64,000 nucleotides of DNA from Ferrovibrio sp. MS7 (GCF_038404985.1 NZ_JBBKBA010000001.1:310001-374000); one strand, 5' to 3'; shown: positions 43,983 to 64,000, counted from the stretch's first letter. Numbers and translations are program-made. Notes: generated from the sequence alone by a model not told the origin.

Positions 43983-44035
<53 letters not shown>

Positions 44036-44147
44036 AAAACTCATTTTTGGCCATCATCGCCAACAAGCCCCAACACGAAAACCCAATGATTTCAGCACTC
44101 CGGCTCTTGACGCCTGTTGGCGGGAGTGGCCAGATATTGGCGTCAAC

Positions 44148-44169
44148 TGTCCCCAAAGTGTCCCCAGAG
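44148..44169. repeat. Tandem 11-bp repeats, candidate integrase arm-type sites
   Basis: TGTCCCCAAAG (44148-44158) is followed directly by TGTCCCCAGAG (44159-44169), giving two TGTCCCCA boxes 11 bp apart, one helical turn. They lie between the tRNA-fMet core and the integrase start. Direct repeats in this place are typical arm-type binding sites for tyrosine integrases. I found no copy on the chromosomal side of the core, as expected for an attL site. Confidence 0.5.
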
Positions 44170-44224
44170 GGCACTTTTCATGGCCCTTCAGGTTGGCTTT
44201 CCTGAAGGTCGCACGAGGCCCCTC

Positions 44225-45528: not shown

Positions 45529-48516
45529 TTGAACCAAATGACTTCAGGAGAACCGTTGAATTCGGGCTCACGGTGGCACCGTTGGGAGCCGCATATCCAC
45601 GCACCCGGCACACTCTTCAACAATCAGTTCAAGGGGCCGAACGCCTGGGCCGACTATCTCAGCAGCCTTGAACAAGCGACCCCGGTCATCCGGGCTATCG
45701 CGGTCACCGACTACTACTGCACGGACACGTATCAACACGTTGTTCGTGAAATGAAGGAAAGCCGCCGCCTCCCCCAGGTGGCGCTCGTATTTCCCAATGT
45801 TGAACTTCGCTTGGACGTGGCGACCGTCAAGGAGCGCTGGACCAACATCCATTTGTTGGTTAGCCCTGATGATCCGAATCACGTCGCGGAGATCGACCGC
45901 TTCCTGAGCCGACTCCGCTTCGAGGCGTTCGGCGACAATTTCGCCTGCACGCGCGCCGACCTTATCAAGTTGGGGCGCAAGTCGAAGCCGGAGATGAGTG
46001 ACGAGCGTGCCGCGTTCCGTCATGGCGCATCTCAGTTCAAGGTCAACTTCGCGCAGCTTCGCGAGGAGTTCGGCAAGAGCGATTGGGCGCAAGCGCATAT
46101 GCTGATTGCCGTCGCCGGCGCAGAAACGGATGGAACGTCCGGTATCCGCGATACGGCCGATGCGACGCTCCGTCAAGAAATCGAGAAGTTCGCTCATGTC
46201 ATCTTCGCTAGCAGCCCAGCGCAACGTGATTTTTGGCTGGCTCGCAAGGCCGGCGTTGGCGAGGACATTCTGCGCGAGCGATACGGAGGCTGCAAGCCGT
46301 GCCTGCATGGCAGTGACGCCCATGATCAGGGCGCCGTCGCTAAGCCTGACGGAGACCGCTTCTCTTGGATCAAGGGCGACTTAACGTTCGATGCTTTGCG
46401 CCAAGCGTGTATCGACCCCGCCGGAAGGGCGTATGTCGGCGTGCGTCCGCCGTTCCGCGCCACACCAGCACGGGTGATTTCCACAGTCGAATTGAAGGAC
46501 GCGGATTGGGCGCAGACGCCGAAGCTGGCCCTCAATCCTGGCCTTGTCGCGATTATCGGCGCGCGCGGGTCGGGCAAGACGGCACTCGCCGATGCAGTCG
46601 CCGCAGGCTGCGACGCGACCGATGATCGCCTGAGCAGCGCATCATTTATCGTTCGTGCCCGTGAACATCTCGATGGTGTCGGCGTTCGGCTGTCTTGGGA
46701 GACTGGAGATCCGTCGGAGCGAAACCTCTTGGATGGTAGGCGTGATCCGTCGATTTATCCCCGCGCGCGATACCTTTCACAAAAGTTCGTAGAAGAACTT
46801 TGTTCGGCGGACGGTATCAAGGATGACTTGTTGACGGAGATTGAACGCGTCATCTTCGAGGCCCATACGACCCTCGAACGCGACGGCGCCACCGATTTCA
46901 AGGAACTTTTGAACTTGCGGACGACTGTCCTCAGGGACAATCGCGCTCGCGACGAAGAAGCCATCGCCACTCTTTCGGACGAAATTGGCATAGAGCGAGA
47001 AAAGCAGACCCAGATCGCCGGACTCAAGTCTCAGATCACCCAGAAAGAAGTCTTGCTCGCCGGGTACATGAAAAGTCGCGACGCTCTGGTGACGGCTGGG
47101 AGCGCCGACCGCGTCGCACGCTTGAACGCCCTCACCGAGGCTGCCGACCATGTGCGGAATCAGATCCGCCTATGGTCGCTCGAGAGCCAGGCACTCCGCT
47201 CGTTGCAGAATGACGTGTCGGATTTTCGAACCAACCGCGCGCCGATGGCCCTGCGCACAGCAAGGCAATCCTTTGCCGGTGCACATCTGGAAGACAAGGA
47301 ATGGGAGGTCTTCCGGCAGACCTACTCGGGCAACGTCGATGGCACCTTGACCGAGCGCTTGGCAAAGGCCGAACGCGCGGCCGCAGGTTGGCGCGGGACA
47401 GAACAGCCGAGGAAGGCTTCTGACCAGGAGCCTTATGTGGCCGCCGACGCGACTTTGAATCAATTGTCGCTCGGCGTATTGGAGGCGGAAATCGGCCGTA
47501 TCCAACGCCTCATCAACATCGACACTGACACCGCCAATCGGCTGCGGACCATCACGGCAAAGATCGGCGATGAAAACGCGGCGCTCAAACGGCTGCGGGA
47601 CTCACTGGCCGATTGCGAAGGCGCGGAAGAGCGCACGAAGCAGCTCGCCGCCGATCGGGAGCAAGCCTATCTACGCGTGTTTGAATCCATCGTCGGCGAG
47701 GAGCAGGTCTTACACGAGCTGTATCGCCCCCTCATGGATCGGCTCGCAAAAGCGTCCGGCACACTTCGCAAGTTGTCCTTCTCGGTATCACGACATGCCG
47801 ATATCCACCGCTGGGCGACCGAAGGCGAGGGGCTCTTCGACAAGCGTCGAACCGGGCCCTTCAAAGGCGTGGGAACCCTGGAAGGCTGGGCGGAATCGCT
47901 GTTGAGACCAGCGTGGGAGTCCGGCGATCCCGCCGCTGTCGCCGCCGCCATGGCGGAATTCCGCCAGGCGCATCAAACGGAATTGCTGGAGTTATCGGAA
48001 GTGCCGCGTTCGCAGCAATCCGATTATCGGTCTTGGCTGCGGCGGTTTGCGAAATGGCTCTATGGCACGAGCCATATCGAGATTAGTTATAGCATCGACT
48101 ACGAAGCCGTCGATATTCGCAAGCTGTCACCGGGCACACGCGGCATCGTCTTGCTGTTGCTCTATCTCGCGCTCGATGATGCGGACGATCGTCCGCTAAT
48201 CATCGATCAGCCCGAGGAGAACCTGGACCCGAAGTCGATTTTCGATGAGCTGGTCGAGTTGTTTATCGCGGCGAAGAATACGCGGCAAGTGATTATGGTG
48301 ACGCACAACGCAAACCTCGTCGTCAACACGGACGCCGATCAGGTCATCGTCGCGTTTGCTGGCACTCATACACCCGGCAAGCTGCCGCCCATCCGCTATC
48401 TGTCGGGCGGTTTGGAAAGCGCAGAGATGCGCAAGCATGTCTGCGATATCCTCGAAGGCGGCGAGCGCGCATTCAAGGAGCGCGCTCGCCGCCTGCGGGT
48501 ACGCCTGGAGCGGTGA
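45529..48516 (+). CDS. PHP-domain SMC/ABC-type ATPase (TrlF-like), candidate defence protein
   Basis: A 995-residue fusion. Residues ~15-310 resemble a PHP metal-dependent phosphoesterase: EPHIHAPGT (His22, His24), a VTDYY strand (Asp61) and CLHGSDAHD (His260, Asp263, His265). An ABC/SMC-like ATPase follows, with Walker A GARGSGKT at 344-351. A long helical, probably coiled-coil middle covers ~430-720, with signature LSPGTRG at 866-872, Walker B LIIDQPEENLDP at 890-901 and the switch His926 in VTHNANL. This is the split-head layout of Rad50, OLD and RloC proteins, with a PHP nuclease in place of their nuclease parts. A TTG at 45529 with AAGGGAG upstream is the best start; ATG at 45538 is possible. 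It stands alone between integrase and excisionase genes. Confidence 0.85.
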   Translation: MNQMTSGEPLNSGSRWHRWEPHIHAPGTLFNNQFKGPNAWADYLSSLEQATPVIRAIAVTDYYCTDTYQHVVREMKESRRLPQVALVFPNVELRLDVATVKERWTNIHLLVSPDDPNHVAEIDRFLSRLRFEAFGDNFACTRADLIKLGRKSKPEMSDERAAFRHGASQFKVNFAQLREEFGKSDWAQAHMLIAVAGAETDGTSGIRDTADATLRQEIEKFAHVIFASSPAQRDFWLARKAGVGEDILRERYGGCKPCLHGSDAHDQGAVAKPDGDRFSWIKGDLTFDALRQACIDPAGRAYVGVRPPFRATPARVISTVELKDADWAQTPKLALNPGLVAIIGARGSGKTALADAVAAGCDATDDRLSSASFIVRAREHLDGVGVRLSWETGDPSERNLLDGRRDPSIYPRARYLSQKFVEELCSADGIKDDLLTEIERVIFEAHTTLERDGATDFKELLNLRTTVLRDNRARDEEAIATLSDEIGIEREKQTQIAGLKSQITQKEVLLAGYMKSRDALVTAGSADRVARLNALTEAADHVRNQIRLWSLESQALRSLQNDVSDFRTNRAPMALRTARQSFAGAHLEDKEWEVFRQTYSGNVDGTLTERLAKAERAAAGWRGTEQPRKASDQEPYVAADATLNQLSLGVLEAEIGRIQRLINIDTDTANRLRTITAKIGDENAALKRLRDSLADCEGAEERTKQLAADREQAYLRVFESIVGEEQVLHELYRPLMDRLAKASGTLRKLSFSVSRHADIHRWATEGEGLFDKRRTGPFKGVGTLEGWAESLLRPAWESGDPAAVAAAMAEFRQAHQTELLELSEVPRSQQSDYRSWLRRFAKWLYGTSHIEISYSIDYEAVDIRKLSPGTRGIVLLLLYLALDDADDRPLIIDQPEENLDPKSIFDELVELFIAAKNTRQVIMVTHNANLVVNTDADQVIVAFAGTHTPGKLPPIRYLSGGLESAEMRKHVCDILEGGERAFKERARRLRVRLER

Positions 48517-49142: not shown

Positions 49143-50246
49143 CTAGCCGAACATCCTCTTGTTCATTCGCGCTACGACGGCTGTCGTGTGTTGTTCGCTC
49201 AGGTGGGCGTAACGCTTCACCATCTGAAGTGTTTTGTGGCCAAGAACCTCGGCGATCTCCGCGACCGTCGCCCCGCTCATTGCAAGATAGGAGGCAGCCG
49301 TGTGCCTGAGGTCATGAAAGCGGAAATCTTCGATACCGGCGGCAGCTAAAGCGCGCTTCCATTCCTTTTGGATATGCATGGGCTTCTTGCCATCGGCACG
49401 GGCGAAGACGTACTTCGAGACGATGACGCGGTTCCGAGAAAGTTCGGCTATCAACTCGTGGGCATGGCCAACGAGGGGAAGCGCCCGTCGCTCTCCGTTC
49501 TTGGTTACATCCAGAACAATGATGTTGCGGGCCAAATCGACGTTCTTCCACTCGATGGACATGATTTCACCGTAGCGGGCCCCCGTGGATAGGGTCAGCA
49601 CGACGATCGGATAGAGAAATTGGTTTCGGCTCTTCTTGCAGGCCGCCAATAGCGCATCCCGCTCGCTGTCGGACAAGAATCGAACCCGCCCTCTTGGTTC
49701 CTGCGGTTTGCGGACACGCTCGACCGGGTTCTCCCGCGTCCATTCCCATTCGTTGACGGCCGTCGTGAACATCACCGACAAGCTCGCAAAATAGCGCACC
49801 ACGGTAGATGCCGATCGCAGCTTCCCTTCCTCGCCGTTCTTGGCCTCTAAGGGTTTACCGACCGAGTTCAACGGCGGGGTGCTGAGTAGGAGGTCACGAC
49901 ATTCGATAAGCCGCGCGGGTGTCACGTCGGTGATGAAGCAGTCACCTAGTTGGGCTTTCCACCAAAGCAGATGTTTGACGACTTTGCGCTTCGCTGTCGG
50001 ATTTTTGTGGCGAACCGGCACGACCGTGGCGATGTATCGATCAACCATATCGGCGAGTGTTTTTCGGCGCGCTTCCGGGGTTTTGATATATCGCCCCTCG
50101 CGCATCGCCACTTCGGTCTGCTGCGCCCACGCCTTCGCATCGGTTTTCCGCTCGAAGGTCGCTGTTTGCGAGGGATACCCCTTGATTCTTACAATAGCTT
50201 GATACCGAGTTCCCTCGTCAGTAACACGCTCACAAATCGTCGCCAA
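49143..50246 (-). CDS. Tyrosine-family site-specific integrase B
   Basis: Recombinase of 367 residues, clearly homologous to integrase A but without its basic linker. Catalytic residues: Arg224 in STGARYGE, Lys249 in VTKNGERR, His311 and Arg314 in FHDLRHTAASYL, His337 in VLGHKTLQ, Tyr346 in MVKRYAHL. The last three blocks are nearly identical to those of integrase A. The start is a TTG at 50246 (protein begins LATICERVTDEG, read as Met). Its start faces the tRNA-Phe core at 50447 about 200 bp away, so tRNA-Phe is its expected target. Confidence 0.93.
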   Translation of the reverse strand: MATICERVTDEGTRYQAIVRIKGYPSQTATFERKTDAKAWAQQTEVAMREGRYIKTPEARRKTLADMVDRYIATVVPVRHKNPTAKRKVVKHLLWWKAQLGDCFITDVTPARLIECRDLLLSTPPLNSVGKPLEAKNGEEGKLRSASTVVRYFASLSVMFTTAVNEWEWTRENPVERVRKPQEPRGRVRFLSDSERDALLAACKKSRNQFLYPIVVLTLSTGARYGEIMSIEWKNVDLARNIIVLDVTKNGERRALPLVGHAHELIAELSRNRVIVSKYVFARADGKKPMHIQKEWKRALAAAGIEDFRFHDLRHTAASYLAMSGATVAEIAEVLGHKTLQMVKRYAHLSEQHTTAVVARMNKRMFG

Positions 50247-50446: not shown

Positions 50447-50493
50447 GATTGAAAATCCCCGTGTCGGCGGTTCGATTCCGTCCCTGGCCACCA
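50447..50493 (+). other. tRNA-Phe 3'-end sequence, attachment core of integrase B
   Basis: On the plus strand 47 bases match the 3' part of tRNA-Phe: GATTGAAAATCCCC with the GAA anticodon, the GTGTCGG variable region, a T arm with GGTTCGATTCC, and the acceptor end CCCTGGCCACCA. Left of 50447 the sequence does not pair or match, so the 5' half is missing and this is not a working gene. It can be an attP core captured from a tRNA or the remnant left at one end of an element. The repeats on both sides favour attP. Confidence 0.75.
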
Positions 50494-50697: not shown

Positions 50698-51465
50698 TCA
50701 CGACCGCCTCACAATTACCCCAGTGGTAATTAAAGCATTTAGATGCTTGTTCAGGGTGGCCGGCAATTCACCACCCTTTATCAATACTCCCGCCTCAATG
50801 TTTCTTTCCATCGCGTAGCCGGTCAGATTCGCACTGCTCAAAAATGCAAGTGCTAGATCTGCAACAGCAACTTTAGCGTGGACTTTGCCCCCAAGAAACC
50901 TGCCTTGTTTATCAACCCAAGTATAAAGCCTCGCAGCAGGGACACTCGATCTCATCGTAGCGATCGGGTCGACTTGCAGTGACCCCCCATCGCTATTAGA
51001 CGCTTCCAGCAGAATATCAATATCGACACCCCGCTCTGCGGCCAGGTTGAGCTCGCCCGCTATCGCGGGCACATCGTACGCAACAAAGCTAACTAAGAAT
51101 ATCTGGGTGTGGGCCGCGCGGATCAAATCCAATAAGACCTGCTCAGTCCTGCGAACGGCAACAAATGGCGTGGTTGGTCCAGTCCAAACAAGGTCTACAT
51201 GCGTCTCATCTAGGGTACGGAGACGTGCATGACAAGCTCCCAAGAGCATACCTGCCAGTACTTCGTCAGAGACGCTAGATTCCCTCCACTCGCGACAGAG
51301 TGTCATCAAGGAACTCTTTGCTGAAGGTGTTGCCACCAATTGACGCAAAGCTTTCTCTGCATCTGCGGGAGCTACGCCTTTGACTGCATGAGCGATGGCA
51401 ATCAGTCTTTCCGGCGGGAGCAAAGCGGCAAGATCGCATACCGAATTAAGTAAGCCTTTCATCAT
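50698..51465 (-). CDS. drmC: DISARM protein DrmC, phospholipase D-like
   Basis: A 255-residue protein with a single PLD active-site motif, HAKVAVAD (His196, Lys198, Asp203), followed by SSANLTGYAMERNIEAGVLI. The order and spacing are as in PLD-superfamily nucleases, which pair two such motifs by dimerisation. I start at the ATG at 51465, which overlaps the drmB stop as ATGA; an in-frame GTG lies six bases upstream. PLD-domain DrmC is the last gene of known DISARM operons and has been reported as not essential for protection in a studied class 2 system. It is the last gene of this operon. Confidence 0.88.
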   Translation of the reverse strand: MMKGLLNSVCDLAALLPPERLIAIAHAVKGVAPADAEKALRQLVATPSAKSSLMTLCREWRESSVSDEVLAGMLLGACHARLRTLDETHVDLVWTGPTTPFVAVRRTEQVLLDLIRAAHTQIFLVSFVAYDVPAIAGELNLAAERGVDIDILLEASNSDGGSLQVDPIATMRSSVPAARLYTWVDKQGRFLGGKVHAKVAVADLALAFLSSANLTGYAMERNIEAGVLIKGGELPATLNKHLNALITTGVIVRRS

Positions 51466-53303
51466 CTGCACTCAAAAAACGCTGCGCTGGCATTCTCTAA
51501 AGTCGGAACGACCAAGGCGCGATCAAGGTATCGGTTGCCGCTCTCACAAGAAGTTTCGGAAACAAAGGAGCAAGCGTGACAGGCGGCGCCATGTACAGAT
51601 TGATCTTTGCCAGGATCATGCTCTGCACAGAGCGGATCGGACGCACAGATGTGTGCGCGGTCAAGCGCTTGTCGCAGAAGCCGTTCAAGATTCTCAGGCT
51701 TGCCTAGCTCTACGAGTCCCCCGAGAGTTCCGTCGGAGTCCGCCGCAGCAGTATAGATGAGAAGCCCCGCTTGATCGTTTCCATCTTCGACGTCCGCATA
51801 AATGCGCTCACGAATACTTGCGGCATTGTAACCGCACTCCAATGCCAGCTCTCGGATCAGCATGTGCGCGAGGGTGTGTAGCATGGCATAACGAACCCCC
51901 GGATATCCTTGGTCTGGGTTTAGGTTCCGTTTGTGTCGCCATCCGCGATGGCCTCTATTCAGACGCGCGTCGAGTAGTTTCACGGGATCCTTATCCGCCC
52001 AAGTCCGCAAAGCACCCGTATCGAACTGAATAAAGATACCTTCCCCGTGCACTTGTGTAGCTGGCACCCAGTTCGGTGCGGTGCGTGCAATAGGAGCCCT
52101 TGGCGCAGCCTCGTCCTTCGTGCCTTCGCTAGGGGATTCGACTCGTGTGAAACCCAGGAGGGCGTTCACCTCACGAAGCCGCTCCAGCAGCAGAACGCGT
52201 GTGATCACCGCACCGAAACCCGACGGCACGCCAACCTTCTTGCTCATGAAATGCGGATAGTCGGTGGGTGGGTTCTCGGCCGTAAGCACATCCCATTCCG
52301 GGCCTTTGAGGTCGCTCTGTTCGACGCCCGGTCCGCCATTGCGATGGGTTTCGATTGCGGACCAAATCTGATCGTAAGTGAACTGCTCGATGCCAGGCAG
52401 TTGCGCCGTCTTCTTCAGGGTCTTGACGACGAGCGCCACTTCGGTCGCCGAAGTGACGTCTTCAAAGAACGTCCAGCCATCCGCGACCAGTTGCGCCAGA
52501 GGGCTTCCCACTTGTGGGATCGCGAGAACCGAGAGTGTGACCGGGAACCAGCTATTGGTTGCGCCTAGGAGAATTGCGCGAGGTTCCTCGGCGCAATCGT
52601 CCTCAAAGCGATCCACGTGCGGATGTCGCCCTCGGCAAGCTGGAAGGTTCTCTCGACCTGCCTGACCAAAAGCCTGCGCCATGTTCTTCGATGCGCCGCA
52701 GTCATCGCATTTAACCCACAGGTTCTCGGTTTGCAGTGATGCGCCGCTCTCGAAAAACCTCAGCGTCGCACGACAGATGCTAGGCCCACCGTGAACGAAC
52801 CAGTGCCAGGCAAAATCGTCGAGGTGGCCAGCCCGACACGCCATGAGAAAGCGTGCCGGGACAGCATCGGCATCCCTGGCCCTTTGATCATTGTTCGATC
52901 CACGACAGCCCTCATGGACGAAACGCGTCAATTCAGGGCGATATCTGTTTTCCTTGAGCTTGAACAAGCCGGCGTCATAGGGTGATAGCAAGCCACACTT
53001 GACGCAGCGCAGCCACCTCGGGAAGGGCTTGACGGGCACGCCGATCAGTGCGGCGGCCGAAAATGGGTCTACTATGTCCCTATCGCCCACGGGCGGCATG
53101 CGCAACGATTCGACTTGAGGCCCGAGCACGCTCCGTACGTTGGAGAGTAGTCGTGCCTCTTGTATCGGCTGGCACCTGTCTTTCTCCCAGCGGTCGATCC
53201 CCATCGTGACCACCGACATGTTCGGGAGATCGATTAGAGCTCCCGGGCCGTAGGTCCAAAGCAACTGGCTCGGTCGAATTTCTCCAACGGGTGTCTTGCT
53301 CAT
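51462..53303 (-). CDS. drmB: DISARM protein DrmB (DUF1998)
   Basis: A 613-residue DUF1998 protein. The N-terminus GEIRPSQLLWTYGPGALIDL is typical of DrmB. Cysteine pairs that could bind zinc occur in RCVKCGLL, KCDDCGASKN and the C-terminal stretch with CHACSFVSETSCESGNRYLD, a hallmark of DUF1998. DrmB forms a complex with the helicase DrmA and helps bind DNA. The ATG at 53303 overlaps the drmA stop as ATGA. The tight coupling fits an obligate complex. Confidence 0.92.
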   Translation of the reverse strand: MSKTPVGEIRPSQLLWTYGPGALIDLPNMSVVTMGIDRWEKDRCQPIQEARLLSNVRSVLGPQVESLRMPPVGDRDIVDPFSAAALIGVPVKPFPRWLRCVKCGLLSPYDAGLFKLKENRYRPELTRFVHEGCRGSNNDQRARDADAVPARFLMACRAGHLDDFAWHWFVHGGPSICRATLRFFESGASLQTENLWVKCDDCGASKNMAQAFGQAGRENLPACRGRHPHVDRFEDDCAEEPRAILLGATNSWFPVTLSVLAIPQVGSPLAQLVADGWTFFEDVTSATEVALVVKTLKKTAQLPGIEQFTYDQIWSAIETHRNGGPGVEQSDLKGPEWDVLTAENPPTDYPHFMSKKVGVPSGFGAVITRVLLLERLREVNALLGFTRVESPSEGTKDEAAPRAPIARTAPNWVPATQVHGEGIFIQFDTGALRTWADKDPVKLLDARLNRGHRGWRHKRNLNPDQGYPGVRYAMLHTLAHMLIRELALECGYNAASIRERIYADVEDGNDQAGLLIYTAAADSDGTLGGLVELGKPENLERLLRQALDRAHICASDPLCAEHDPGKDQSVHGAACHACSFVSETSCESGNRYLDRALVVPTLENASAAFFECR

Positions 53304-56300
53304 TGCTGATCCTCCTGAGGCTCAGTCACCCGCACCCGCCAAGTCGGATCACTTGTCGATCGGTCGTCCTCCATCACGAGCCTTACACCAGGCTCGACTT
53401 CGCGCATGGACATCGGGACCGTCCAATCGGTCCAAGGCCTGATGCCCGGCGCCGAAAGCAGCGGATAGGCGGTGGGTCCTGCGCCATGCTTCTGGTATAC
53501 GAGCGTGCGGCCGCCGACGCCCGCTTCATTAGCCCAATCGTCAGCGCGGCTCTTCATCTCGGCTTCGGTCAGGGTCTTCTTTCCCGAGTCTTCCGTGACT
53601 TCCCAGGTGCGAGCGGCGACGGCACCTATCGTATCCAACATCTCTTTGCGGCTAGGACTGTTCATGGCGCCAGCGCCGTCATTTGCCGCGAAGGGATCGT
53701 AGGAGTGACGCATGATGGAGAGCATCGCGCCGGTGAGCCCTCGGTCCAACGCCCGTGGCGAGAACGGGGTGACGGATTGAGCTTCGACGTGTTGATAGAA
53801 GGTCGCGTGGTAATGCTCGAAGGTCTCGTAGTGCGACAAGTCCCGAGGCCGCGCCCATGTCAGCACAGTGGCCACCAGTCCTGGCGGCGTTCGGCCCACA
53901 CGGCTCGTCGCCTGGATGTACTCGGCCGTTCCCTTGGGTTGGCCGTTTACGACCATCACTCCGAGACGATTCACGTCGACGCCGACCGACAGCATGTTCG
54001 TGGCGAGAACGGCATCAATCGGCCGGGCCTCCCCTGGCTTCCTGTTGGTCACCCATTTGCCTAGTGCCGGATCGAAGGTGCCATCGAAAGGAACCTCGAG
54101 CTGATCGAGGTACCTCGGGATGTCCTGACTGGAGACCCGCGATGTCAGTTCGCTGATTTCCTCGACCCGCCGCTGCGCGAGCCCCGGTCGGTCCACCAGG
54201 CTCATATCGACACGGAAGGAACGCGTTTGAACGTCGTCCTCGGCCAAGCGCTTCATGCCACCGAGTTCTCGCAGCGAGTTGAAGTAGCCGACGAGAGTCA
54301 TATAGGGGTCGGCCAGCGGGCCGAACCGATCGAACAGCGCCTGCGCAGCGGTGAGGAACGCCGTGTAGGTTCTGATCAGCACCGCAGGGCGAGAGCTGCC
54401 GGGAGCGCAGATTCCCATGTACCGTCGGCCGGGTTTCTCGCGGATGGGTCTCTGGACCGAGAAGAAATTGTCTTCGACGTCCAGGCCGGAAGGCGGAAAC
54501 ACGGAAATGCGGCGCATGAAAACGTTGCGCACCTGGTCGTCGGCTCGCCGCACGGTCGCGGTGGAAGCGACGACCTTGGGACGAACCCTCTCGTCGCCCA
54601 GAACCCAGCTGCTCAGCTCGTCGACAGCTGTTTCGTAAAGGCCCACCATGGTGCCCAGCGGACCGCTGATAAGGTGGAATTCGTCCTGGATGATCAGATC
54701 TGGTGGTCGGATTGCGCGGACCGGCTTCACAATGGCGGCCGGATATGCCCCCCTCGCTCGGTGCCCCGTGCCGCAGTCGTGGCTCGGCCAGAGCAAACCA
54801 TGTCGTCCGCATTCCAGCTCGACGCGGCCGAAAAGGTTCCGAACCTCGGGACGCCACGCCATCATCGCGAACTTGTCCACGGTTGCGATCATCATCGTCG
54901 GCGGGCGGTGATAGATTTCCTCATCGACGACTTTCACGGGAAGCCCCGGGTGAGCCTGCCCAGTGGATTTCGCCTTCGAGAAATCGCAGCTGCCCAGCTT
55001 GTCGCCGCAGTGGATCAGCGTTCGGCCGGCGATCCTGTCGACCTCAATGTCACGACCACCGGAGATCTCCGAACCGCACCAAGGGCAGCTGGTCAGCTGT
55101 GCAGGCGATGCAATTCCCGCCTTGTTGCGATCGTTGTTTCGAATGGCCTCGACAGCCTGGTGAGACGCGTCTGTTGTGCCCGGTGTCACGCGATTGCCGA
55201 CCCAGAGACCGAGCGTGAAAGGTTCCTTGCCCCAGGTCTTGTCGTCTGCACGACGGATGACCTCCATAGCGCAGAGCAGCGTCGTCGCCCTCTGAAACTG
55301 CTGCAGAGTCAGCAGTCGCAGGGTGTAGCGCATGATTACGGCGAGACCACGTGATGCGTCGAGGCCGCCGAGATCATTCTTCAGTCGGCGCATGGCCATG
55401 GCGAAGGCCGCCACACCGAGATAGGCCTCGGTCTTGCCACCACCCGTCGGGAACCAGAGGAGATCGGCGAACGCCTCGACCGGCTTCGTCCGGTCCGGGT
55501 GTGTCGGATCGGCGAGCGACGGGATCGACAGGAGCAGGAACGCCAGCTGGAACGGGCGCCACGATCTGTTCTTCGGCACGTCCAAAGTGGTCACGTCGAC
55601 GGCTTCGTTCCGTCTGCGCTTCAGAGCGTAGATGCTTCGGACACGCTGCATCGCCATGGACCGGTTGGCAAAGCGGAACGCCTCCATCGCTTTCGGGTCG
55701 GCGAAGAGAGTGTCCATGCCCTCTCGGAGACGGCGCAGGATCTCCTCGCAGCGCTGAATGACGTCCTTGCCCGGATCATCGAAACCGGTGATCTCCGACC
55801 CCAGCCGGGTTTTCTGTTCGCCGATCCAAACGGCGTAATCGTCGACGAGGCACAAAAGAGCGGCGCGCAGCGCGTCCGGCGCCATCTCCGCCAAGCGCGT
55901 CATGTCGAGCCAGCCCTCGTCGACCATGCGCCGCATGGCAGGGCGGTCCCTGGGATCAAGGCCCGGCGTTTCGGTGACGGCGACTTCGTAGCGCGGGATG
56001 ATCTCTGTTCTGACGCGATGGGCCTTCGTAGGGTCCTCGGGCGTCGTATCGGCGTGAACGGACACCCCGTGTCCGACCGCGAACTCCAGCTTGTTACGAT
56101 AGATGAGCGCGAGACGGTCGCGTTCCGGGTCGTCGACGACCACTTCGTTGGTTGGGCGACGCCGAAAGACCGACTTGTCCCCGTGATCTTCGGGGGGCTC
56201 GACGGTGATCTCCGGCTGAAACAGCCAGGCGCGGTCCTTGTTGTCTTCAGGTTCCAACTGCCCGTTGACGAGGAACAAAGTGACCAGGCGCTCCCCCTTG

Positions 56301-57289
56301 TTGTTCGTCCGAACCGTCCCCTGCAAGCGGACGTCCGGTTGATCGGGGTCGGGAGTGGACGGCTTGATCGGCCCGTCGACGAGCGGAACCGTGACAACGC
56401 CACCGCACGGGATGCGCTGCCAGACCCTGACCTTCACCTCCTCCTGGTGACCGGTCTGGCGATTCTTTCGCGTCTTGACGATCTCGTGCTCATCGTTCGG
56501 GACCCGCTCGTACCGTCCCCACCGTGCATCGACGGCCAGCTTCCCGACATCGGGCGCCACGCAGAAGGTGAGGCCCATGCTGGAGGGAACCAGCGACTGA
56601 TTGTTCGTGGTGTCGATCTCGTCCAGCGCGTCGTCTTCGGGCTCCACCCGGCCCGATGCACTCGCGAACTCGGCGCCGGGTTCGTGGAGCGGCGCCGCCC
56701 GCTCGTCTTCGAGGTCGCCAGCCTCATCGGCTGCCGAGGCCGGTTCGACCCGTGCCGCTTGGTCGTCATCCGGCCGCCGCGGCGCCAGCTTGCCGACCAG
56801 ATAGCGGTCGCGGACGCTCATGTCCTTGATCAGCTCATGGGGGCCACCGGCGGGGCCGAGCAGATCGTCACGCACGGCGAGTTCCAGGAGGTCGCGGGTG
56901 TAGACGACATCGTCGATCAGAGGCGCTGCGGCGGGGTCAGGAACACCGACCGGCGGCAGGATGCGGAGGAATTCGTCCCATGGTAGCCGCGCGGCTGGTC
57001 CAGTCGGCGCGGTTAGGCCGAGGGCCGCGAGCGGCACGGTTGGATCCACGGCGTGCCAATGATCAAAATGGATCGTGGCGCCGTCGAGGTCCGAGCGAAT
57101 GCGAAGGATACGACCCACCCCAGCGACGTTGCCGTCGTCGTCCAAAACGACCACCCAGTGACCCTCTTCAATTGCGCCGTCGGTGGTCGACCCGACGGCG
57201 ATACGCACGGAATAGCGTGGTGAGCTAGACGGCCGCTTGACGATCCAGGCGCTGACGGATTGCTCGGTAGTCGCGGTCAGATCGGCCAT
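53300..57289 (-). CDS. drmA: DISARM helicase DrmA
   Basis: Superfamily 2 helicase of about 1330 residues, core of the DISARM complex. Motifs (numbering from a TTG two codons upstream): Walker A FPTGGGKTEAYLG at 615-627, DEAD-like box DLIIQDEFHL at 866-875, STAT at 911-914, motif VI QATSRVGRTPPG at 1128-1139. A zinc-binding-like insert with Cys737, Cys740, Cys763 and Cys770 lies between motifs I and II. The ~550-residue N-terminal part is a family-specific, weakly recognisable region with an acidic stretch near 175-230. The ATG at 57289 is used; the TTG at 57295 overlaps the drmMI stop and may be the true coupled start. Confidence 0.93.
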   Translation of the reverse strand: MADLTATTEQSVSAWIVKRPSSSPRYSVRIAVGSTTDGAIEEGHWVVVLDDDGNVAGVGRILRIRSDLDGATIHFDHWHAVDPTVPLAALGLTAPTGPAARLPWDEFLRILPPVGVPDPAAAPLIDDVVYTRDLLELAVRDDLLGPAGGPHELIKDMSVRDRYLVGKLAPRRPDDDQAARVEPASAADEAGDLEDERAAPLHEPGAEFASASGRVEPEDDALDEIDTTNNQSLVPSSMGLTFCVAPDVGKLAVDARWGRYERVPNDEHEIVKTRKNRQTGHQEEVKVRVWQRIPCGGVVTVPLVDGPIKPSTPDPDQPDVRLQGTVRTNNKGERLVTLFLVNGQLEPEDNKDRAWLFQPEITVEPPEDHGDKSVFRRRPTNEVVVDDPERDRLALIYRNKLEFAVGHGVSVHADTTPEDPTKAHRVRTEIIPRYEVAVTETPGLDPRDRPAMRRMVDEGWLDMTRLAEMAPDALRAALLCLVDDYAVWIGEQKTRLGSEITGFDDPGKDVIQRCEEILRRLREGMDTLFADPKAMEAFRFANRSMAMQRVRSIYALKRRRNEAVDVTTLDVPKNRSWRPFQLAFLLLSIPSLADPTHPDRTKPVEAFADLLWFPTGGGKTEAYLGVAAFAMAMRRLKNDLGGLDASRGLAVIMRYTLRLLTLQQFQRATTLLCAMEVIRRADDKTWGKEPFTLGLWVGNRVTPGTTDASHQAVEAIRNNDRNKAGIASPAQLTSCPWCGSEISGGRDIEVDRIAGRTLIHCGDKLGSCDFSKAKSTGQAHPGLPVKVVDEEIYHRPPTMMIATVDKFAMMAWRPEVRNLFGRVELECGRHGLLWPSHDCGTGHRARGAYPAAIVKPVRAIRPPDLIIQDEFHLISGPLGTMVGLYETAVDELSSWVLGDERVRPKVVASTATVRRADDQVRNVFMRRISVFPPSGLDVEDNFFSVQRPIREKPGRRYMGICAPGSSRPAVLIRTYTAFLTAAQALFDRFGPLADPYMTLVGYFNSLRELGGMKRLAEDDVQTRSFRVDMSLVDRPGLAQRRVEEISELTSRVSSQDIPRYLDQLEVPFDGTFDPALGKWVTNRKPGEARPIDAVLATNMLSVGVDVNRLGVMVVNGQPKGTAEYIQATSRVGRTPPGLVATVLTWARPRDLSHYETFEHYHATFYQHVEAQSVTPFSPRALDRGLTGAMLSIMRHSYDPFAANDGAGAMNSPSRKEMLDTIGAVAARTWEVTEDSGKKTLTEAEMKSRADDWANEAGVGGRTLVYQKHGAGPTAYPLLSAPGIRPWTDWTVPMSMREVEPGVRLVMEDDRSTSDPTWRVRVTEPQEDQQ

Positions 57290-57291
57290 GG

Positions 57292-60200
57292 TCAAGCACC
57301 CCTATCATCGATTTTTACGAGAACATCGTCGAGGTCGAGCGTAAAATCCGGCGTTTCAATATTTCTTCTGCGGCGCCCGCGCGCCTTGCCCGACCCGGAC
57401 TTTCCAGCGTCGGCTCGCTTGGCGATTTCTTCCTCATGTTGAGCTTTGTTGAGGGCGACGAGTCTTGGAAGTAGCTCTTCTCGGATTTCTTCGCTGAGCG
57501 AATAGCGCCACTGTGCGCTACCAGAAGATGCATTCACTTCATGGAAGTCATAACTGACGTCCAGATCGGCCCAGCCAAAAGCTGCTGCCACATGCCTATC
57601 TAGGGTCTCGAAAAGCACCCTGAGTTCTGCAATTCGAGGATCATCGTTGTCGGGCGAATGAACCGCGTTCATGAGATCGGTGAGGCCGCATTGATGTTCC
57701 GCGCTCCAAGCGACGGCGATGTCGTTGAAGCGAAGGGCCGCATCGACTCCCTCTTGGGACACCGCCCCGCTCGGCAGCGGGAACTTTGCTATCGATTCGC
57801 TGATGGATAGCTGAAGGGTTACTCCTAAGCCTGCGCCGCTGTAGGCTTCAAGCCATGATCGGAATGGGGTGCTTAGGCATATAGGAAATAAATCATCCCT
57901 TTCGATGCCGATCAAAACCACCTTGTTGGTGTAGATCCAATCTGAGGGAGCCAGCATGCATATGGGATGTTTGGTCACCTTGGAATATGCGATGAACCTT
58001 TCTCTCTGGCGAATCCTGCGCATCAAGTCAGCGCGGTGATTCCAGAACTGCCACCAACGATCGATAAGACCTTTGTAGCTTTTCAAGGCTTCTGGCGTCC
58101 GGGTCGGTTGCACGACCTCAGTAATGAATTGATAAGCCTCGGGCCAATCGCGTTGGATGTCGTCGAGTTCACGATCGGCAATATCAAGCGCCCACCGCGC
58201 TACGTCATTCAAGGCCGAACTGGTGATGTCATCGCCGGTGACGTAGGGCCTTAACAGGCTGTTTGGTTCATCCTTCAGGCGTTCGAACCAAGGATGGTCC
58301 GGGGTGATAACGAACGCCAGTCCCTTGCTGTTATTCACACCCTCGAAGCTGAATATTCCGTCCGACAGCGCGACGGGTGCCCAGCTATTTGCTTCTTCTG
58401 GCTCAAGGCGAGGTCCGATGCGATCGCAATCATGGCCGTCTGCATCGTTCCGTCCGTTCCACTCGCCCTTGAAGAACCCGACAACTGCAACGACGACGGC
58501 AGCTGTGCCCGGCCATGGCATTCCCTTTCTTGCGAAGTAGATACTACCTCGCTTGACTATCTCTCCGAGCCCAAGGTCGATCGCACTGCCTTCTGCAATG
58601 TTGCTCGTAGCAAGCAGGCCGTAGCTGCCTCCTCGCCTCATGAGATCGGCAGCGCGTCGGTGAAAGACGACACAAAGGTCGATTTTTGCGGGAGAGACTC
58701 CGAGAACCAGTTGGCACTGCCATTGGAATCGTTCGCCCAAAGCTCCCTTCCACAAGCGGTTGCCCAAGAACGGTGGGTTCCCGACGATGGCGTCAAAACC
58801 TCCATTTTCTCGGTCAAAGACCTCTGGAAATTCAAGCGGCCAATGGAATGGGTGCCGCGCGGTGCTGTCTAGGGAGTCTTTTGCCAAGTCAGTTGATGCA
58901 TCGCGCCGGAGCCTATCTTTCTTTGAGTTTTCGCCACTTACCATGGCGTCGGCGAATGCAGCCAGCGTCTCGATCCTGGCTGTCCGTTCTCCAGCCCGAT
59001 CTTCAGCCAGAATAATGCCGACGAACGCATCGGCAATGAGCGTCGGCAGTGCCAGCTCGCCGCGCGATTGCGTGTCGAGTGCCGCCATCGCTTCGACATC
59101 CTTTATGTCGCGAATGGGGATATCCCGCAGACGCGCGCGAAGTTCGAGTGCCTTGTCGATCGCTAACCGGATCGTCCGACCGAATAGTCGAAGCTGAGTC
59201 TTTCCCTTCGGGCTCATGTCGAGCTCGACCAGCTGACCAAGATCGTGAATGCCGAGAAGGCTGTCGCCACTGCGCAGATTGTGGTCAAGGAAGCCGAAAG
59301 GCCGCCCCTTGGACATGGTCGTTAGCCAAAGCGAGAGCTTGGCCAGCTCCACGGCCAGCGGGTTCTTGTCCACACCATAGAGGCACCGCTCCGCCACGAG
59401 CCGTCGGGCGACGATGGCGCGTTCCTCCGCGTCCTTCGACAGGGGATCGAAGCCTCCGGCGGCGGCGTCGACGATGCGCCCTTCGCTGTCGATCTGCTTG
59501 CCGCTGGCCTCCGTCACCGACCAAGCCTCGACCAGACGATCCGAAAGCCACCGGCACGCCTGCACCAGGAATGCTCCGGACCCCATGGCAGGGTCGCAGA
59601 TCTTCAGATCGAGCAACTCCTCGGCGCTCCTCAGGTCCCAATCCTCGGGCGCCTTGCCCTCGGCCGGACCGCGATAGGCGACGGGCGTCAGCGTCTCCTC
59701 GACGATCTTCTCCGTCAGGCTCTTGGGCGTGTAGTGCGTGCCGCTCTCGCGCCGTTCGGCGCCGAGAACGACGACGAAGGCGTCCGTGTGGTGGACGAGC
59801 GGATAGCCCCAAGGGTCGGTCCGCAGGAGGGGCGCGTAGGGCAGGATGCGGTCGCGCAGACCGATGTCGCCGCGGCAAACGGTGAGTAGGCGCGCGCCGA
59901 GACGATCGTCGGCAGCCCGCTCAAGGGCGTTGCGGATGGCCGACTCCGAACGCTCGCTGCGTTCCTTTAGCAATTCGGTGACCCTCGCTGTGCCATCTAG
60001 GCGCGCCGACTCCATCTCGCCGAGCGTCACGCGCGGGCTCTTGGCATTCGCGCCGCTGTCGAGTTCCAGCGTTACGTCGTCGACGCGCTTCACCGTGCGT
60101 TCGAGGAGGCCCTCGTAGACGTGGCCGATCTGCTCCACGTCGAGTGCGCGATAGGACAGCGTGCGGCCTTCGAAGGTCTGGATCGCTTCCAGCAGGAGCA

Positions 60201-61368
60201 GAACGGTACGGTCGTCGATCGGCAGCGGTTCGGCCGGATCGGTTCGCCAGCTCGTGCCCTTCTTTCGTCCTTCGAGGAAGGGATAGCGATCGGGGTCGAA
60301 CAGCGAACCGCCGAGAGCCGGAAGGCGCAGCGTCGGATGATCGATGCCGCCATACACGCCACGAAACAGGGCGAGCAACTGCGACCATGCGGAACGGCGA
60401 CGCTCTAGAATCTCTTCGGAATCCGCGCGCAGCTGCATTCGCAGGCTGGAGATGGCGTAGAAGGAGTCGTAGCGCGGATCGCCGAGCAGGAGCAGGGCGC
60501 GCTCCTCGGCCGCCAACAGGAAGACGAGCCGCATCATGACCGTCAGTCCGGCCTCGTAGAGGTCTCGCGGATCGACGTCGCGCAAGAGCTCGCGATTGCG
60601 GTCCTGGTCGGCGCGGTCGAGAGCCTGGACGAGCACTTCGACGGCGCGCCGAACCTGCTCGCCGAGCGCTTCGGTCACGTCGTCCTGGTGCTTCAGAGAC
60701 CGCTCATAGAGCGCCGGTAGCTTGCCTTCGTCGGGCCCGAAGAAACGGCGGACGCCCAGAAGACTGACGAAGGCGCGCAGCGTTTCCGGTTCCTGGCCCC
60801 AGAGCCGCGCATACCAGCTCGCGAAGCCTGCCACGGCGCCGGCAGGCGCGTGGACGAGCATCCAGCGCTCGCCATTGGTGACGATGCCAGTGGGGCATCC
60901 CGTCGACCTGAGCAGAGCGACCATCCGGTCGGCCGGGGTGATCGCGAGGCCATCGAAACGGCGCGTCGCGTCGAGATCGGTGTCCGGCTCATAGACATGG
61001 ATGAGCAGGAGTGGTTCGTCGGAGTTCGTTGGATTCACGACGGCCAGATCGGGCGCGACCGTGACCCCGTGTTCAGGCATCGAGACAGTGAGCTGCTCAG
61101 GCAGTGTCGCGCCTTTGCGCAGCACCGTCTCGTCCATTTCCAGCGCGGTGACCAGCACGTCGTCGATCCAGGCCGCGTGCAGCGCTGGAAGGTCGAGGTC
61201 GTCCATGTCGACGGCATCGCGCCATTCCTCATAGGTTCGACGAAGCCGCTGAGGCCGCCCGGAAGGCAGAGCTTCGAGGCCTTGCGGGAAGACCTCCCGC
61301 AGCACGGGCACCGCCAGAAAGGGCCCAGAGACTTCGATGAGGTTCAGCCACTCGTGATCGTTGTTCAT
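57292..61368 (-). CDS. drmMI: DISARM DNA methyltransferase DrmMI (adenine-specific type)
   Basis: A 1358-residue class I SAM-dependent methylase related to Eco57I-like and BREX PglX enzymes. The SAM loop is CDPAMGSGAFLVQAC at 591-605, NPPF (864-867) is the amino-methyltransferase catalytic motif and supports N6-adenine methylation, and YGVDKNPLAVELAKLSLWL (664-682) is motif II. N- and C-terminal regions are large and probably recognise DNA. It marks host DNA so that DISARM spares it. The ATG at 61368 overlaps the drmD stop as ATGA. The target sequence is not predictable from sequence alone. Confidence 0.92.
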   Translation of the reverse strand: MNNDHEWLNLIEVSGPFLAVPVLREVFPQGLEALPSGRPQRLRRTYEEWRDAVDMDDLDLPALHAAWIDDVLVTALEMDETVLRKGATLPEQLTVSMPEHGVTVAPDLAVVNPTNSDEPLLLIHVYEPDTDLDATRRFDGLAITPADRMVALLRSTGCPTGIVTNGERWMLVHAPAGAVAGFASWYARLWGQEPETLRAFVSLLGVRRFFGPDEGKLPALYERSLKHQDDVTEALGEQVRRAVEVLVQALDRADQDRNRELLRDVDPRDLYEAGLTVMMRLVFLLAAEERALLLLGDPRYDSFYAISSLRMQLRADSEEILERRRSAWSQLLALFRGVYGGIDHPTLRLPALGGSLFDPDRYPFLEGRKKGTSWRTDPAEPLPIDDRTVLLLLEAIQTFEGRTLSYRALDVEQIGHVYEGLLERTVKRVDDVTLELDSGANAKSPRVTLGEMESARLDGTARVTELLKERSERSESAIRNALERAADDRLGARLLTVCRGDIGLRDRILPYAPLLRTDPWGYPLVHHTDAFVVVLGAERRESGTHYTPKSLTEKIVEETLTPVAYRGPAEGKAPEDWDLRSAEELLDLKICDPAMGSGAFLVQACRWLSDRLVEAWSVTEASGKQIDSEGRIVDAAAGGFDPLSKDAEERAIVARRLVAERCLYGVDKNPLAVELAKLSLWLTTMSKGRPFGFLDHNLRSGDSLLGIHDLGQLVELDMSPKGKTQLRLFGRTIRLAIDKALELRARLRDIPIRDIKDVEAMAALDTQSRGELALPTLIADAFVGIILAEDRAGERTARIETLAAFADAMVSGENSKKDRLRRDASTDLAKDSLDSTARHPFHWPLEFPEVFDRENGGFDAIVGNPPFLGNRLWKGALGERFQWQCQLVLGVSPAKIDLCVVFHRRAADLMRRGGSYGLLATSNIAEGSAIDLGLGEIVKRGSIYFARKGMPWPGTAAVVVAVVGFFKGEWNGRNDADGHDCDRIGPRLEPEEANSWAPVALSDGIFSFEGVNNSKGLAFVITPDHPWFERLKDEPNSLLRPYVTGDDITSSALNDVARWALDIADRELDDIQRDWPEAYQFITEVVQPTRTPEALKSYKGLIDRWWQFWNHRADLMRRIRQRERFIAYSKVTKHPICMLAPSDWIYTNKVVLIGIERDDLFPICLSTPFRSWLEAYSGAGLGVTLQLSISESIAKFPLPSGAVSQEGVDAALRFNDIAVAWSAEHQCGLTDLMNAVHSPDNDDPRIAELRVLFETLDRHVAAAFGWADLDVSYDFHEVNASSGSAQWRYSLSEEIREELLPRLVALNKAQHEEEIAKRADAGKSGSGKARGRRRRNIETPDFTLDLDDVLVKIDDRGA

Positions 61369-64000
61369 CCGCGCTTCTCCGTCGCGAGGGAGTTCGGAAC
61401 CAGCAGCACCACGGCCACGGGGAAGGTATGCTCGACGGCATTGGAGTGCCGTTCCTCGATCGCGCTTAGCTCCTGCTCGCGCTCTTTGGGGATCCGGGCC
61501 AAGCGTGCTTCGAGGGCCGCTCGGTCACGCTTGAGCTGAGTGCGTTCGTCCTCGGAGAACAGAGAAAGCTGCAAGGGCTGCTGTTCCGCCGCAATCTCGG
61601 TCTTCAGCGCTCGTTCGAGATCGTCCAGGACTTGACGAATGTCCTCGGCCTCCTTGCGTTTCCGGGTCTCGATCGTGTTCACGAGGAAGCGTAGCCGGTC
61701 TTTCGAGCGTGCCTCGACGGCCGCCAGGACGGCATCACGATGCTTGTCGAAGCGGGTACGAAGGGCTTCGAACGTCGAATCCGACAGGGCCGCAGGCTGC
61801 GAGTCTTCCAGCCAGCGACGAACTTCCGTAACCCGCTCCTCTCGCCGGAAACCGGCATCGCGCAGATAACCGCCAGCCTCCGTGAGCTCCTCGTGCAGAC
61901 GATGATGGTTCCCGCCGGTCACGACGAGCCGCGACATCACCACCACGGCCGGCCCCTCTATCCGCCCATCCGGAAGCGACCGGACGGTCACGCGGTGAAG
62001 CTTCTTCACGTCGTCACGGGCCCAGATCTCCGCGCGCAGGAGCCGCAGACTCATCTGTACGAGCCGGTGGTTCAGGTGGACGAGGACGACGTCGTCACGG
62101 CCCTTGGCGACCTCGTGGTCGAAGGTGATCGGGCGAACCTTCTGTGAGTAGGGGTGTTCGAGACCCTCGAGGCATCGGGACCAGGAACCCGAGAGCGGCG
62201 GCATTCGGAAAACCGTGCCATCCGGAGCGCCGGCTAGAGAAACGGGCTCCAAGTCTGGTTTGTCCGTTAGACGCAACGCGGTGCGTACCGCTCTCTCAAT
62301 GTGGTCGGGCACGAGGCTCTGTTCGCGCCGGGTCTCGGTCAGCCGCTCATGGAGTTTGGCCACACGTTCGCGAAGGTTGCGCTCCGCCTTCACGAAGCGG
62401 CGAGATTTCTCCATCCGGGCTTCGGCTTGTCTCGTGTCGAGATCGCGGCGGCGCCCCTCCAGCAGGTCGGGCAGTTGAGGCGCGATGACGGGGTTCACGC
62501 TCCCCATGTCGGCGCGCATAGCTTCCAGCTTGTGAAGCGCGCGCAGGATATCGTCACCGTGGCCACCTTCGGCATCCACTGGGTGCCAGATGACGACCTC
62601 GCTGGCGCGTTGCCCATGGCGGTCGATGCGGCCGTTCCGCTGCTCCATCACATTTGGGTTGTACGGAATTTCGAGGTGGATCATCAGATGGCAGTGGTTC
62701 TGGAGGTCGATGCCCTCGGAGGCGGCATCGGTCGCCAGCAGTATCCTCACCGGAGATTCCGAGGGGTTGGCCTGGAACGCGGCTTTCACGCCCTCGCGTT
62801 CTTTCGGGTCCATGCCGCCATAGATGAGAGCCAATCGCTCGCCCCCGAAGCCGTGAGATGCGAGGATCTCCTGCATCCATTGCTGAGTGGCGCGATACTC
62901 GGTGAACAGGATCACCCGCTCGTTCGTCCACCTGTCACCGTCCTTCAGGTGACTGGCCAGCCAACCCAGCACGGCAGTGGCCTTGGCATCGGCCCGACGA
63001 GCCGCCTGTTGGGCCCAGGATCGCAATCGGTCGAGCATCCGGCGTTCTTCGTCGGTCGGTGGCCGGACATGCTTGCCCGCTTCCTCGATCGCTTCAGCCT
63101 CGGCGGCATCCCGCTGTGCGTCGTCTGCGTAGTCTTCCTCGGTCTTCGCTATCGCCCGCCGAAGGATGCGGTCATCGAATTTCTTCTGGCTGCGCTCGCC
63201 AGCCGCGCGGCCCTCGATCGTCGCGATATGCCGTTCGAGTGTCGCTGCGAACGCTGCAGGAGACGATGACAGGCGTTTACGCAGCAACTGGTGCACGAAG
63301 TGATCGACGGCGCGCCCTCCATCAGCACCGCCTTCGCGGCTCTTGATGTATGCCTCCAGCTGCCGCCTGGCGTCCCTCTCGTCCTCGCCATACTCTACCG
63401 GCAGCGCCTCGAGCCGCCGTTGGGGGTAAATGCGCTTACCGTTCGCATCGACCAGATCGCTCTTCAGCCGACGGACCATCACCCGGGCGAGTTGGGGATC
63501 ACTTGGGAGAACGTTTCTCGCGAACCGCTGATCATCAAGGAGTTCGAGGAGCGCGGTGAAGGATTCGGTGTACCCGTCGTGCGGCGTGGCTGTGAGAAAC
63601 AGTTTGTGCTGGAAGTGTGGCGCGGCCAGACGAACCAGACGGGTCCTGAGGCTTTCGACAGCGTAGCGCCCGACAGTCGGCGCGACGTTGTGAGCCTCGT
63701 CGATGATCAGCAGGTCGAACTTCCTGGGATGGCTGACGTGCGGGGGCAATGCGTCCCGCAGAAGACGCAAGCCTTCACCCTGCTTGGCCCAGTCCATCGA
63801 CGTGATGAGACGGGGAAAAGACGTCCACGGATTGGCGTGGAGACCTCGCTCACGGCGCAAACGCTTGACGTAGCCCGTATCAACGATCCGGAACTCGAGT
63901 CCGAACTTCTCCTGCATCTCGACGCGCCACTTTTCCTGCAACGAGGCAGGGCAGAGCACGAGGACCGTGCGGGCGCGGTGACGCAGGAGCATCTCTTGAA
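61365..64000 (-). CDS. drmD: DISARM SNF2-type helicase DrmD (N-terminal part beyond the window)
   Basis: At least 878 codons of a SNF2/Swi2-like ATPase. The frame is open at the window edge, so Walker A and the true start lie further right; the ATG at 63992 is internal. Seen here: motif Ia VLVLCPASLQEKW, DEAH box LLIIDEAHNVAP near residue 98, motif III LTATPHDGYTESF, motif V ATDAASEGIDLQ and motif VI EQRNGRIDRHGQ. Between the two helicase lobes are ~150 charged residues. The C-terminal ~350 residues are coiled-coil rich. Presence of drmD together with drmMI defines class 1 DISARM. Confidence 0.92.
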   Translation of the reverse strand, partial: QEMLLRHRARTVLVLCPASLQEKWRVEMQEKFGLEFRIVDTGYVKRLRRERGLHANPWTSFPRLITSMDWAKQGEGLRLLRDALPPHVSHPRKFDLLIIDEAHNVAPTVGRYAVESLRTRLVRLAAPHFQHKLFLTATPHDGYTESFTALLELLDDQRFARNVLPSDPQLARVMVRRLKSDLVDANGKRIYPQRRLEALPVEYGEDERDARRQLEAYIKSREGGADGGRAVDHFVHQLLRKRLSSSPAAFAATLERHIATIEGRAAGERSQKKFDDRILRRAIAKTEEDYADDAQRDAAEAEAIEEAGKHVRPPTDEERRMLDRLRSWAQQAARRADAKATAVLGWLASHLKDGDRWTNERVILFTEYRATQQWMQEILASHGFGGERLALIYGGMDPKEREGVKAAFQANPSESPVRILLATDAASEGIDLQNHCHLMIHLEIPYNPNVMEQRNGRIDRHGQRASEVVIWHPVDAEGGHGDDILRALHKLEAMRADMGSVNPVIAPQLPDLLEGRRRDLDTRQAEARMEKSRRFVKAERNLRERVAKLHERLTETRREQSLVPDHIERAVRTALRLTDKPDLEPVSLAGAPDGTVFRMPPLSGSWSRCLEGLEHPYSQKVRPITFDHEVAKGRDDVVLVHLNHRLVQMSLRLLRAEIWARDDVKKLHRVTVRSLPDGRIEGPAVVVMSRLVVTGGNHHRLHEELTEAGGYLRDAGFRREERVTEVRRWLEDSQPAALSDSTFEALRTRFDKHRDAVLAAVEARSKDRLRFLVNTIETRKRKEAEDIRQVLDDLERALKTEIAAEQQPLQLSLFSEDERTQLKRDRAALEARLARIPKEREQELSAIEERHSNAVEHTFPVAVVLLVPNSLATEKRG

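Follow-up and report, generated by a model that had tools for sequence, protein, structure and literature searches.

At the right-hand end of the window, by which we mean the whole stretch of 64,000 nucleotides analyzed here (C1:310001-374000 of the 4.58-Mb genome of Ferrovibrio sp. MS7), an initial annotation had placed a class 1 DISARM anti-phage operon, carried on an apparently tRNA-targeted island that suggested recent acquisition. Is this operon truly DISARM, where does it end, and how did it reach this genome? Our results indicate that the locus is very probably a complete class 1 DISARM operon with the gene order phd-dcm-vsr-drmD-drmMI-drmA-drmB-drmC (encoding a Phd/YefM-type regulator, an m5C methyltransferase, Vsr, DrmD, DrmMI, DrmA, DrmB, and DrmC), a restriction-like defence system on a mobile element. 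The upstream dcm-vsr pair, an exchanged recognition region in DrmMI, and a measured horizontal spread are new relative to the initial annotation.

The five overlapping minus-strand open reading frames at 50698-64000 were all found as described (Table 1). Neighboring genes had been said to overlap by about four bases. This is the case for drmD/drmMI and drmA/drmB, and also for drmMI/drmA if a TTG start is used; an alternative ATG two codons in would let drmA start just past drmMI, as had been anticipated. The drmB/drmC overlap departs from this pattern, being 10 bases with a GTG start and 4 with the next ATG. The 5' 484 bases of drmD lie outside the window, and extending the contig rightward recovered its start; the full gene encodes 1039 amino acids (L003:11365-14484), with a Walker A motif (GLGKT) at 151 and DEAH at 262. 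The absence of Walker A, which the initial annotation had named as a ground for refutation, is thus not seen. DrmMI contains NPPF (at 864) and DPAMGSGAF, DrmA contains TGGGKT and QDEFH, and DrmC has a single HxKx4D motif at residue 198.

Table 1. Features of the DISARM operon and of the element around it. Positions are counted from the first letter of the window, those above 64000 being window equivalents, unless a contig is named.
Feature	Coordinates	Strand	Description
tRNA-fMet 3' part copy	43984-44035	minus	probable left attachment site; 52 bp, 50/52 identical
Tyrosine integrase	44117-45409	plus	beside the probable left attachment site; PF00589 E=5.5e-31
TrlF-family AAA-like ATPase	45529-48516	plus	directly after the first integrase; NF045780 685 bits (cut-off 350)
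Second tyrosine integrase	49143-50246	minus	between TrlF and the drm operon; PF00589 E=8.5e-32
drmC	50698-51471	minus	PLD-family nuclease; NCBIfam NF038319 (DrmC_I) 243 bits (cut-off 133)
drmB	51462-53303	minus	DUF1998/MZB protein, DrmA partner; NF038324 756 bits (cut-off 240)
drmA	53300-57295	minus	YprA-family helicase; NF038325 (DrmAS) 1460 bits (cut-off 950)
drmMI	57292-61368	minus	N6-adenine-type methyltransferase, MmeI/PglX-like; PADLOC DrmMI 1661 bits
drmD	61365-64484 (in the window: 61365-64000)	minus	SNF2/RapA-like helicase; NF038317
vsr	64475-64915	minus	146 aa; PF03852 E=1.9e-17, 63 bits (cut-off 27)
m5C methyltransferase gene (dcm)	64887-65984	minus	365 codons; PF00145 E=2.5e-48
Phd/YefM-type ORF	65995-66198 (L002:1995-2198)	minus	67 aa; PF02604 E=7.6e-11
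Intact tRNA-fMet	C1:392605-392681	minus	the only one in the genome; repeat partner, 38.6 kb to the right

Profile searches agreed with the proposed class 1 content and order. The DISARM models of PADLOC matched all five proteins, and four of them (DrmA, DrmB, DrmC, and DrmD) passed the curated NCBIfam cut-offs by wide margins, the part of drmD inside the window scoring 1118 bits against a cut-off of 610; DrmMI gave no hit to a dedicated NCBIfam model. With E-values as low as 0, chance is ruled out. DrmA and DrmB also matched, over nearly their full lengths, their Serratia counterparts in PDB entry 7S9V (chain A, 1762 bits; chain B, 1028 bits), and a search of solved structures with DrmMI gave no match. 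The features of class 1 DISARM are present: DrmA with a separate DUF1998 protein DrmB, a PLD-type DrmC, an SNF2-like DrmD, and DrmMI, in one operon and in the class 1 gene order.

That the helicase and the methylase come from BREX, type I, or type IIL restriction, leaving the DISARM label superficial, is hardly credible. DrmMI does score 1447 bits on the type IIG models of PADLOC, its relatives are annotated as MmeI-like, and DrmD has weaker matches to BrxHI and BrxHII. However, the BREX PglX model, whose cut-off is 500 bits, gave 27 bits, next to the DISARM cut-offs passed by the other four proteins, and no other BREX gene occurs among the neighbors of the operon. Moreover, the type IIL nuclease motif appears degenerate in DrmMI: at the presumed position of PD-(D/E)XK, most of the relatives shown keep PD, and the second motif reads HVY, QVY, QLY, or similar. 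BREX, type I, and type IIL identities were rejected on the profile scores, and the reassignment that the initial annotation had considered did not occur.

The next 20 kb showed that the operon runs on past the window edge, with two or three more genes upstream of drmD. The vsr gene overlaps the start of drmD by 10 bases and the m5C methyltransferase gene by 29 bases, and a Phd/YefM-type ORF lies ten bases further upstream. In PADLOC the methyltransferase matches best the methylase of class 2 systems, DrmMII (E=2e-87), and its motifs are invariant in 45 proteins. Vsr matches the E. coli Vsr structure 1CW0 over ~110 residues (E=2e-12). Residues E26, D55, D68, H73, and D100, which we take to be the catalytic positions from the alignment with 1CW0 and from general knowledge of Vsr enzymes, are invariant among 48 aligned proteins, and judging by its sequence the enzyme is predicted to be active. 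The small gene before dcm is of the HTH_17 type in many relatives, and of the Phd type here and in L030. No toxin gene adjoins the antitoxin-like ORF. We also noted that a Methylocystis plasmid (L119) has a Phd antitoxin gene overlapping its drmD, and a Phd-type protein is possibly a recurrent regulator of DISARM operons.

How widely do dcm and vsr accompany drmD? A DrmD scan of the genomes of 84,980 species gave 53 related loci, near which dcm and vsr were sought by tblastn. Both genes were adjacent to drmD in 45 of the 53; these include L022, where the vsr match is truncated, and L058, where the methyltransferase gene is inverted. Two loci had the methyltransferase only (L019 and L060) and one, on a MAG contig, had vsr only (L057); in the remaining five, the contig ends too soon or drmD is distant. 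In a quick tree of 61 DrmD proteins, whose long outer branches make the rooting and the deep splits uncertain, a clade of 48 rows (SH-aLRT 100) holds nearly all loci with both genes; dcm is present in every row of it that was scored for dcm, and vsr is absent in two. Among more distant class 1 loci (on plasmids and in 398 genomes of the phylum, with DrmD 31-49% identical), no adjacent dcm-vsr was found, and one such locus (L111) has an m5C methyltransferase gene, 27% identical, near drmA. On a Deinococcus plasmid (DrmD 58% identical), vsr and dcm again form a pair, which lies downstream of drmC and away from drmD. In Lelliottia (L060), dcm and drmD are separated by a gap of ~50 bases with no vsr between them; its DrmA is near-identical to that of Serratia (2882 bits over 1322 residues), and the Ferrovibrio DrmA is ~60% identical to it. 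Collectively, the presence of Vsr appears to track the methyltransferase, not DrmD.

Several loci have further genes inside the operon. On the Microvirga terrae plasmid, HATPase and Methyltransf_35 genes lie between drmMI and drmA (L091:23250-25664), and several other loci (among them L023, L027, L029, and L051) have a gap of similar size between the same two genes. On a Thiodictyon plasmid, genes for an MqsA-type antitoxin and a SecB-like chaperone lie between the methylase gene and drmA (L116:19385-20534).

Vsr is most likely the repair partner of the cytosine methyltransferase. A repair of deaminated methylcytosine, or a stabilization of the methyltransferase, is favored because Vsr co-occurs with the methyltransferase rather than with DrmD. 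Stabilization as the main function is fairly unlikely: in this scheme, loss of methylation would leave Vsr to make breaks at T:G mismatches, the cell would be harmed, and the operon would be kept. It would fit the almost constant pairing of vsr with dcm, and in Caulobacter the loss of the methyltransferase ScmA does cause VsrA-dependent DNA damage and a loss of fitness (PMC12907096). Nevertheless, Caulobacter vsrA is unlinked to its methyltransferase, and the authors of that study see the damage as an accidental by-product of repair (PMC12907096); the proposal also overlaps with the repair role, from which sequence cannot separate it. We consider it decidedly unlikely that Vsr is instead a DISARM effector, which would nick invading DNA that is unmethylated or mismatched, thereby providing single-stranded ends for DrmAB loading. 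The overlap of vsr with drmD as well as with the methyltransferase gene and the invariant catalytic residues would agree with an effector, as would the fusion of Vsr-type nucleases to related helicases in ARMADA (PMC12458937). However, class 1 loci without the methyltransferase are also without vsr, the Deinococcus pair sits apart from drmD, and Lelliottia has no vsr between the methyltransferase gene and drmD.

The two methylases differ in how they evolve. When 42 full-length DrmMI proteins are compared with that of Ferrovibrio, the median identity is 65-95% before residue 780 and 19-50% after it. Even among the 216 pairs whose N-terminal parts are at least 85% identical, the recognition regions are less than 45% identical in 185 and at least 70% identical in 11. 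The recognition region of the Ferrovibrio DrmMI matches that of L008 (Sphingomonas ursincola) only, at 99%. By contrast, the m5C methyltransferase is conserved to the same degree in its recognition region (mean pairwise identity 70%) as elsewhere in its sequence. The recognition region of the Ferrovibrio enzyme is 64% identical to that of Lelliottia, and its cytosine motif is accordingly predicted to be similar to YMT(mC)GAKR of Serratia. The C-terminal part of DrmMI from about residue 780 is an exchangeable recognition region, swapped between otherwise near-identical operons, a pattern that recalls BrxX, in which a variable recognition domain has been reported (PMC11842806).

The operon is also a mosaic in other respects. 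DrmD is 95-97% identical to its nearest relatives, and DrmD, DrmA, and DrmB together range from 90 to 97%, whereas the m5C methyltransferase (72%) and DrmC (56%) are outliers, relatives being mostly 85-100% identical among themselves in both. DNA homology to the relatives begins at the start of dcm and ends at the drmB/drmC junction. These figures would be expected of a decayed or mis-joined operon, its methyltransferase gene, DrmMI recognition region, and drmC drawn from different sources, that no longer works. We nevertheless hold such decay to be very improbable, given that the reading frames and motifs are intact, that the overlaps are kept, and that recognition regions are as a rule exchanged in this clade. 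A complete operon, presumably active in this host, is preferred, and the divergence of DrmC (56% against 85-100% among most relatives) was counted against it.

The suggestion that the operon was acquired is well supported. RpoB of this host is 73-75% identical to that of the hosts of L008, L009, L010, L012, and L038, which belong to other orders, while DrmD is 95-97% identical between the same genomes; furthermore, a DrmD of this kind is present in 2 of 9 genomes of the genus.

For the tRNA-targeted island the support falls short of proof. The imperfect tRNA-fMet repeats, the integrase, and the relaxase speak for a probable 38.6-kb element bounded by the repeats, and the intact tRNA-fMet adjoins an rRNA operon by our own reading of the sequence; ARAGORN found no tRNA within the window. 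A search for an empty site with the two flanks joined found none in 20 relatives, and the left flank matched this genome only, so the edge of the element is not proven. Related tRNA loci had truncated tRNA-Met ends and no clean empty site. The element encodes two integrases, the TrlF ATPase, coupling proteins, a relaxase, NikA, and ArdC, and the TrlF-family ATPase is possibly a second defence gene on it. Other loci gave weak matches to the integrase and ArdC only, which suggests that the operon moves between different elements.

Three further observations were made on the element. Between the second integrase and drmC, at 50448-50493, lies a tRNA-like 3' end (ending in CCTGGCCACCA), of which the genome holds no intact copy, the nearest match having 2 mismatches; perhaps the element carries it as an attachment site that goes unused. 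The ArdC-type gene (L002:13806-14786) is an antirestriction gene on an element that bears DISARM. Lastly, a nucleotidyltransferase-domain gene with a ParD-like start (L002:10636-11441) is followed by a small HepT-like gene, and the two may form a pair of the MntA-HepT type.

Dual-methylase class 1 DISARM is already known from Serratia, and work on that system bears on how the Ferrovibrio operon might act. In that study, a trigger loop is described as keeping DrmAB autoinhibited, unmethylated DNA with a 5' overhang activates it, methylation lowers its ATPase activity, and the operon contains both m5C and N6A methyltransferases (PMC9142583). V1300 of the Ferrovibrio DrmA is the equivalent of Serratia V1296, the valine proposed as methylation sensor, and is conserved. 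We infer that DrmMI would methylate adenine and the DrmMII-like enzyme cytosine, marking two different motifs in the host genome. DrmA-DrmB would load on incoming DNA whose ends are single-stranded or bear a 5' overhang and which lacks these marks, and would then translocate along it, with DrmD as a putative second motor and DrmC as the probable nuclease. Vsr would nick the T strand of T:G mismatches that arise from deaminated 5-methylcytosine in the methyltransferase motif, and this repair may limit the mutational cost of the cytosine mark. The Phd-like protein would regulate the operon.

Among known systems, the locus resembles the class 1 DISARM of Serratia sp. SCBI (7S9V/7S9W), whose DrmA and DrmB are homologous to those of Ferrovibrio over nearly their full lengths. 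N6-adenine and 5-cytosine methyltransferases occur in both operons, and the proposed sensor residue of DrmA is shared; the passages searched in the Serratia study name both methylases and no Vsr (PMC9142583). The Serratia system presumably differs in being without vsr, a point taken from Lelliottia with its near-identical DrmA and not from the Serratia operon sequence. Very short patch repair in E. coli shares an m5C methyltransferase gene followed by vsr in one operon; however, the Ferrovibrio pair overlaps a DISARM operon, its methyltransferase is nearest to DrmMII models, and H64 of E. coli Vsr is D68 in the Ferrovibrio protein. Plasmid pR24_2 of Microvirga terrae (NZ_CP102847) shares the order dcm-vsr-drmD-drmMI...drmA-drmB-drmC, with DrmD 89% identical, but has an HTH-type small gene in place of phd, besides the two genes inserted before drmA. 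ARMADA shares with class 1 DISARM a BrxHII/RapA-like helicase, a PglX-like methyltransferase, and a YprA helicase, and has Vsr-type nucleases (PMC12458937). In ARMADA, however, Vsr is fused to the YprA helicase, whereas here vsr is a separate gene tied to the m5C methyltransferase, and DrmA and DrmB are separate. In the literature searched, whose reach stopped short of key papers, we found no description of Vsr as a part of class 1 DISARM.

For the most part, the locus adds one more clean case of a defence system that is already known. We tentatively suggest, as an idea that might well not hold, that a large clade of class 1 DISARM in Pseudomonadota and Myxococcota was ancestrally a seven-gene system with two marks, a cytosine mark that stays fixed and has a Vsr of its own to guard it, and an adenine mark that is exchanged rapidly. 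The laboratory model, which comes from Enterobacteriaceae, would then represent a branch that lost Vsr, and Vsr may aid defence besides repair. The conserved dcm-vsr genes, together with the contrast between a cytosine specificity that is fixed and an adenine specificity that is exchanged, would offer a direct test of why class 1 DISARM carries two methylases. They also bear on how self is told from foreign DNA by a system in which DrmAB itself seemingly does not read a sequence, and a component that is absent from the usual experimental model would be relevant to anyone rebuilding class 1 DISARM.
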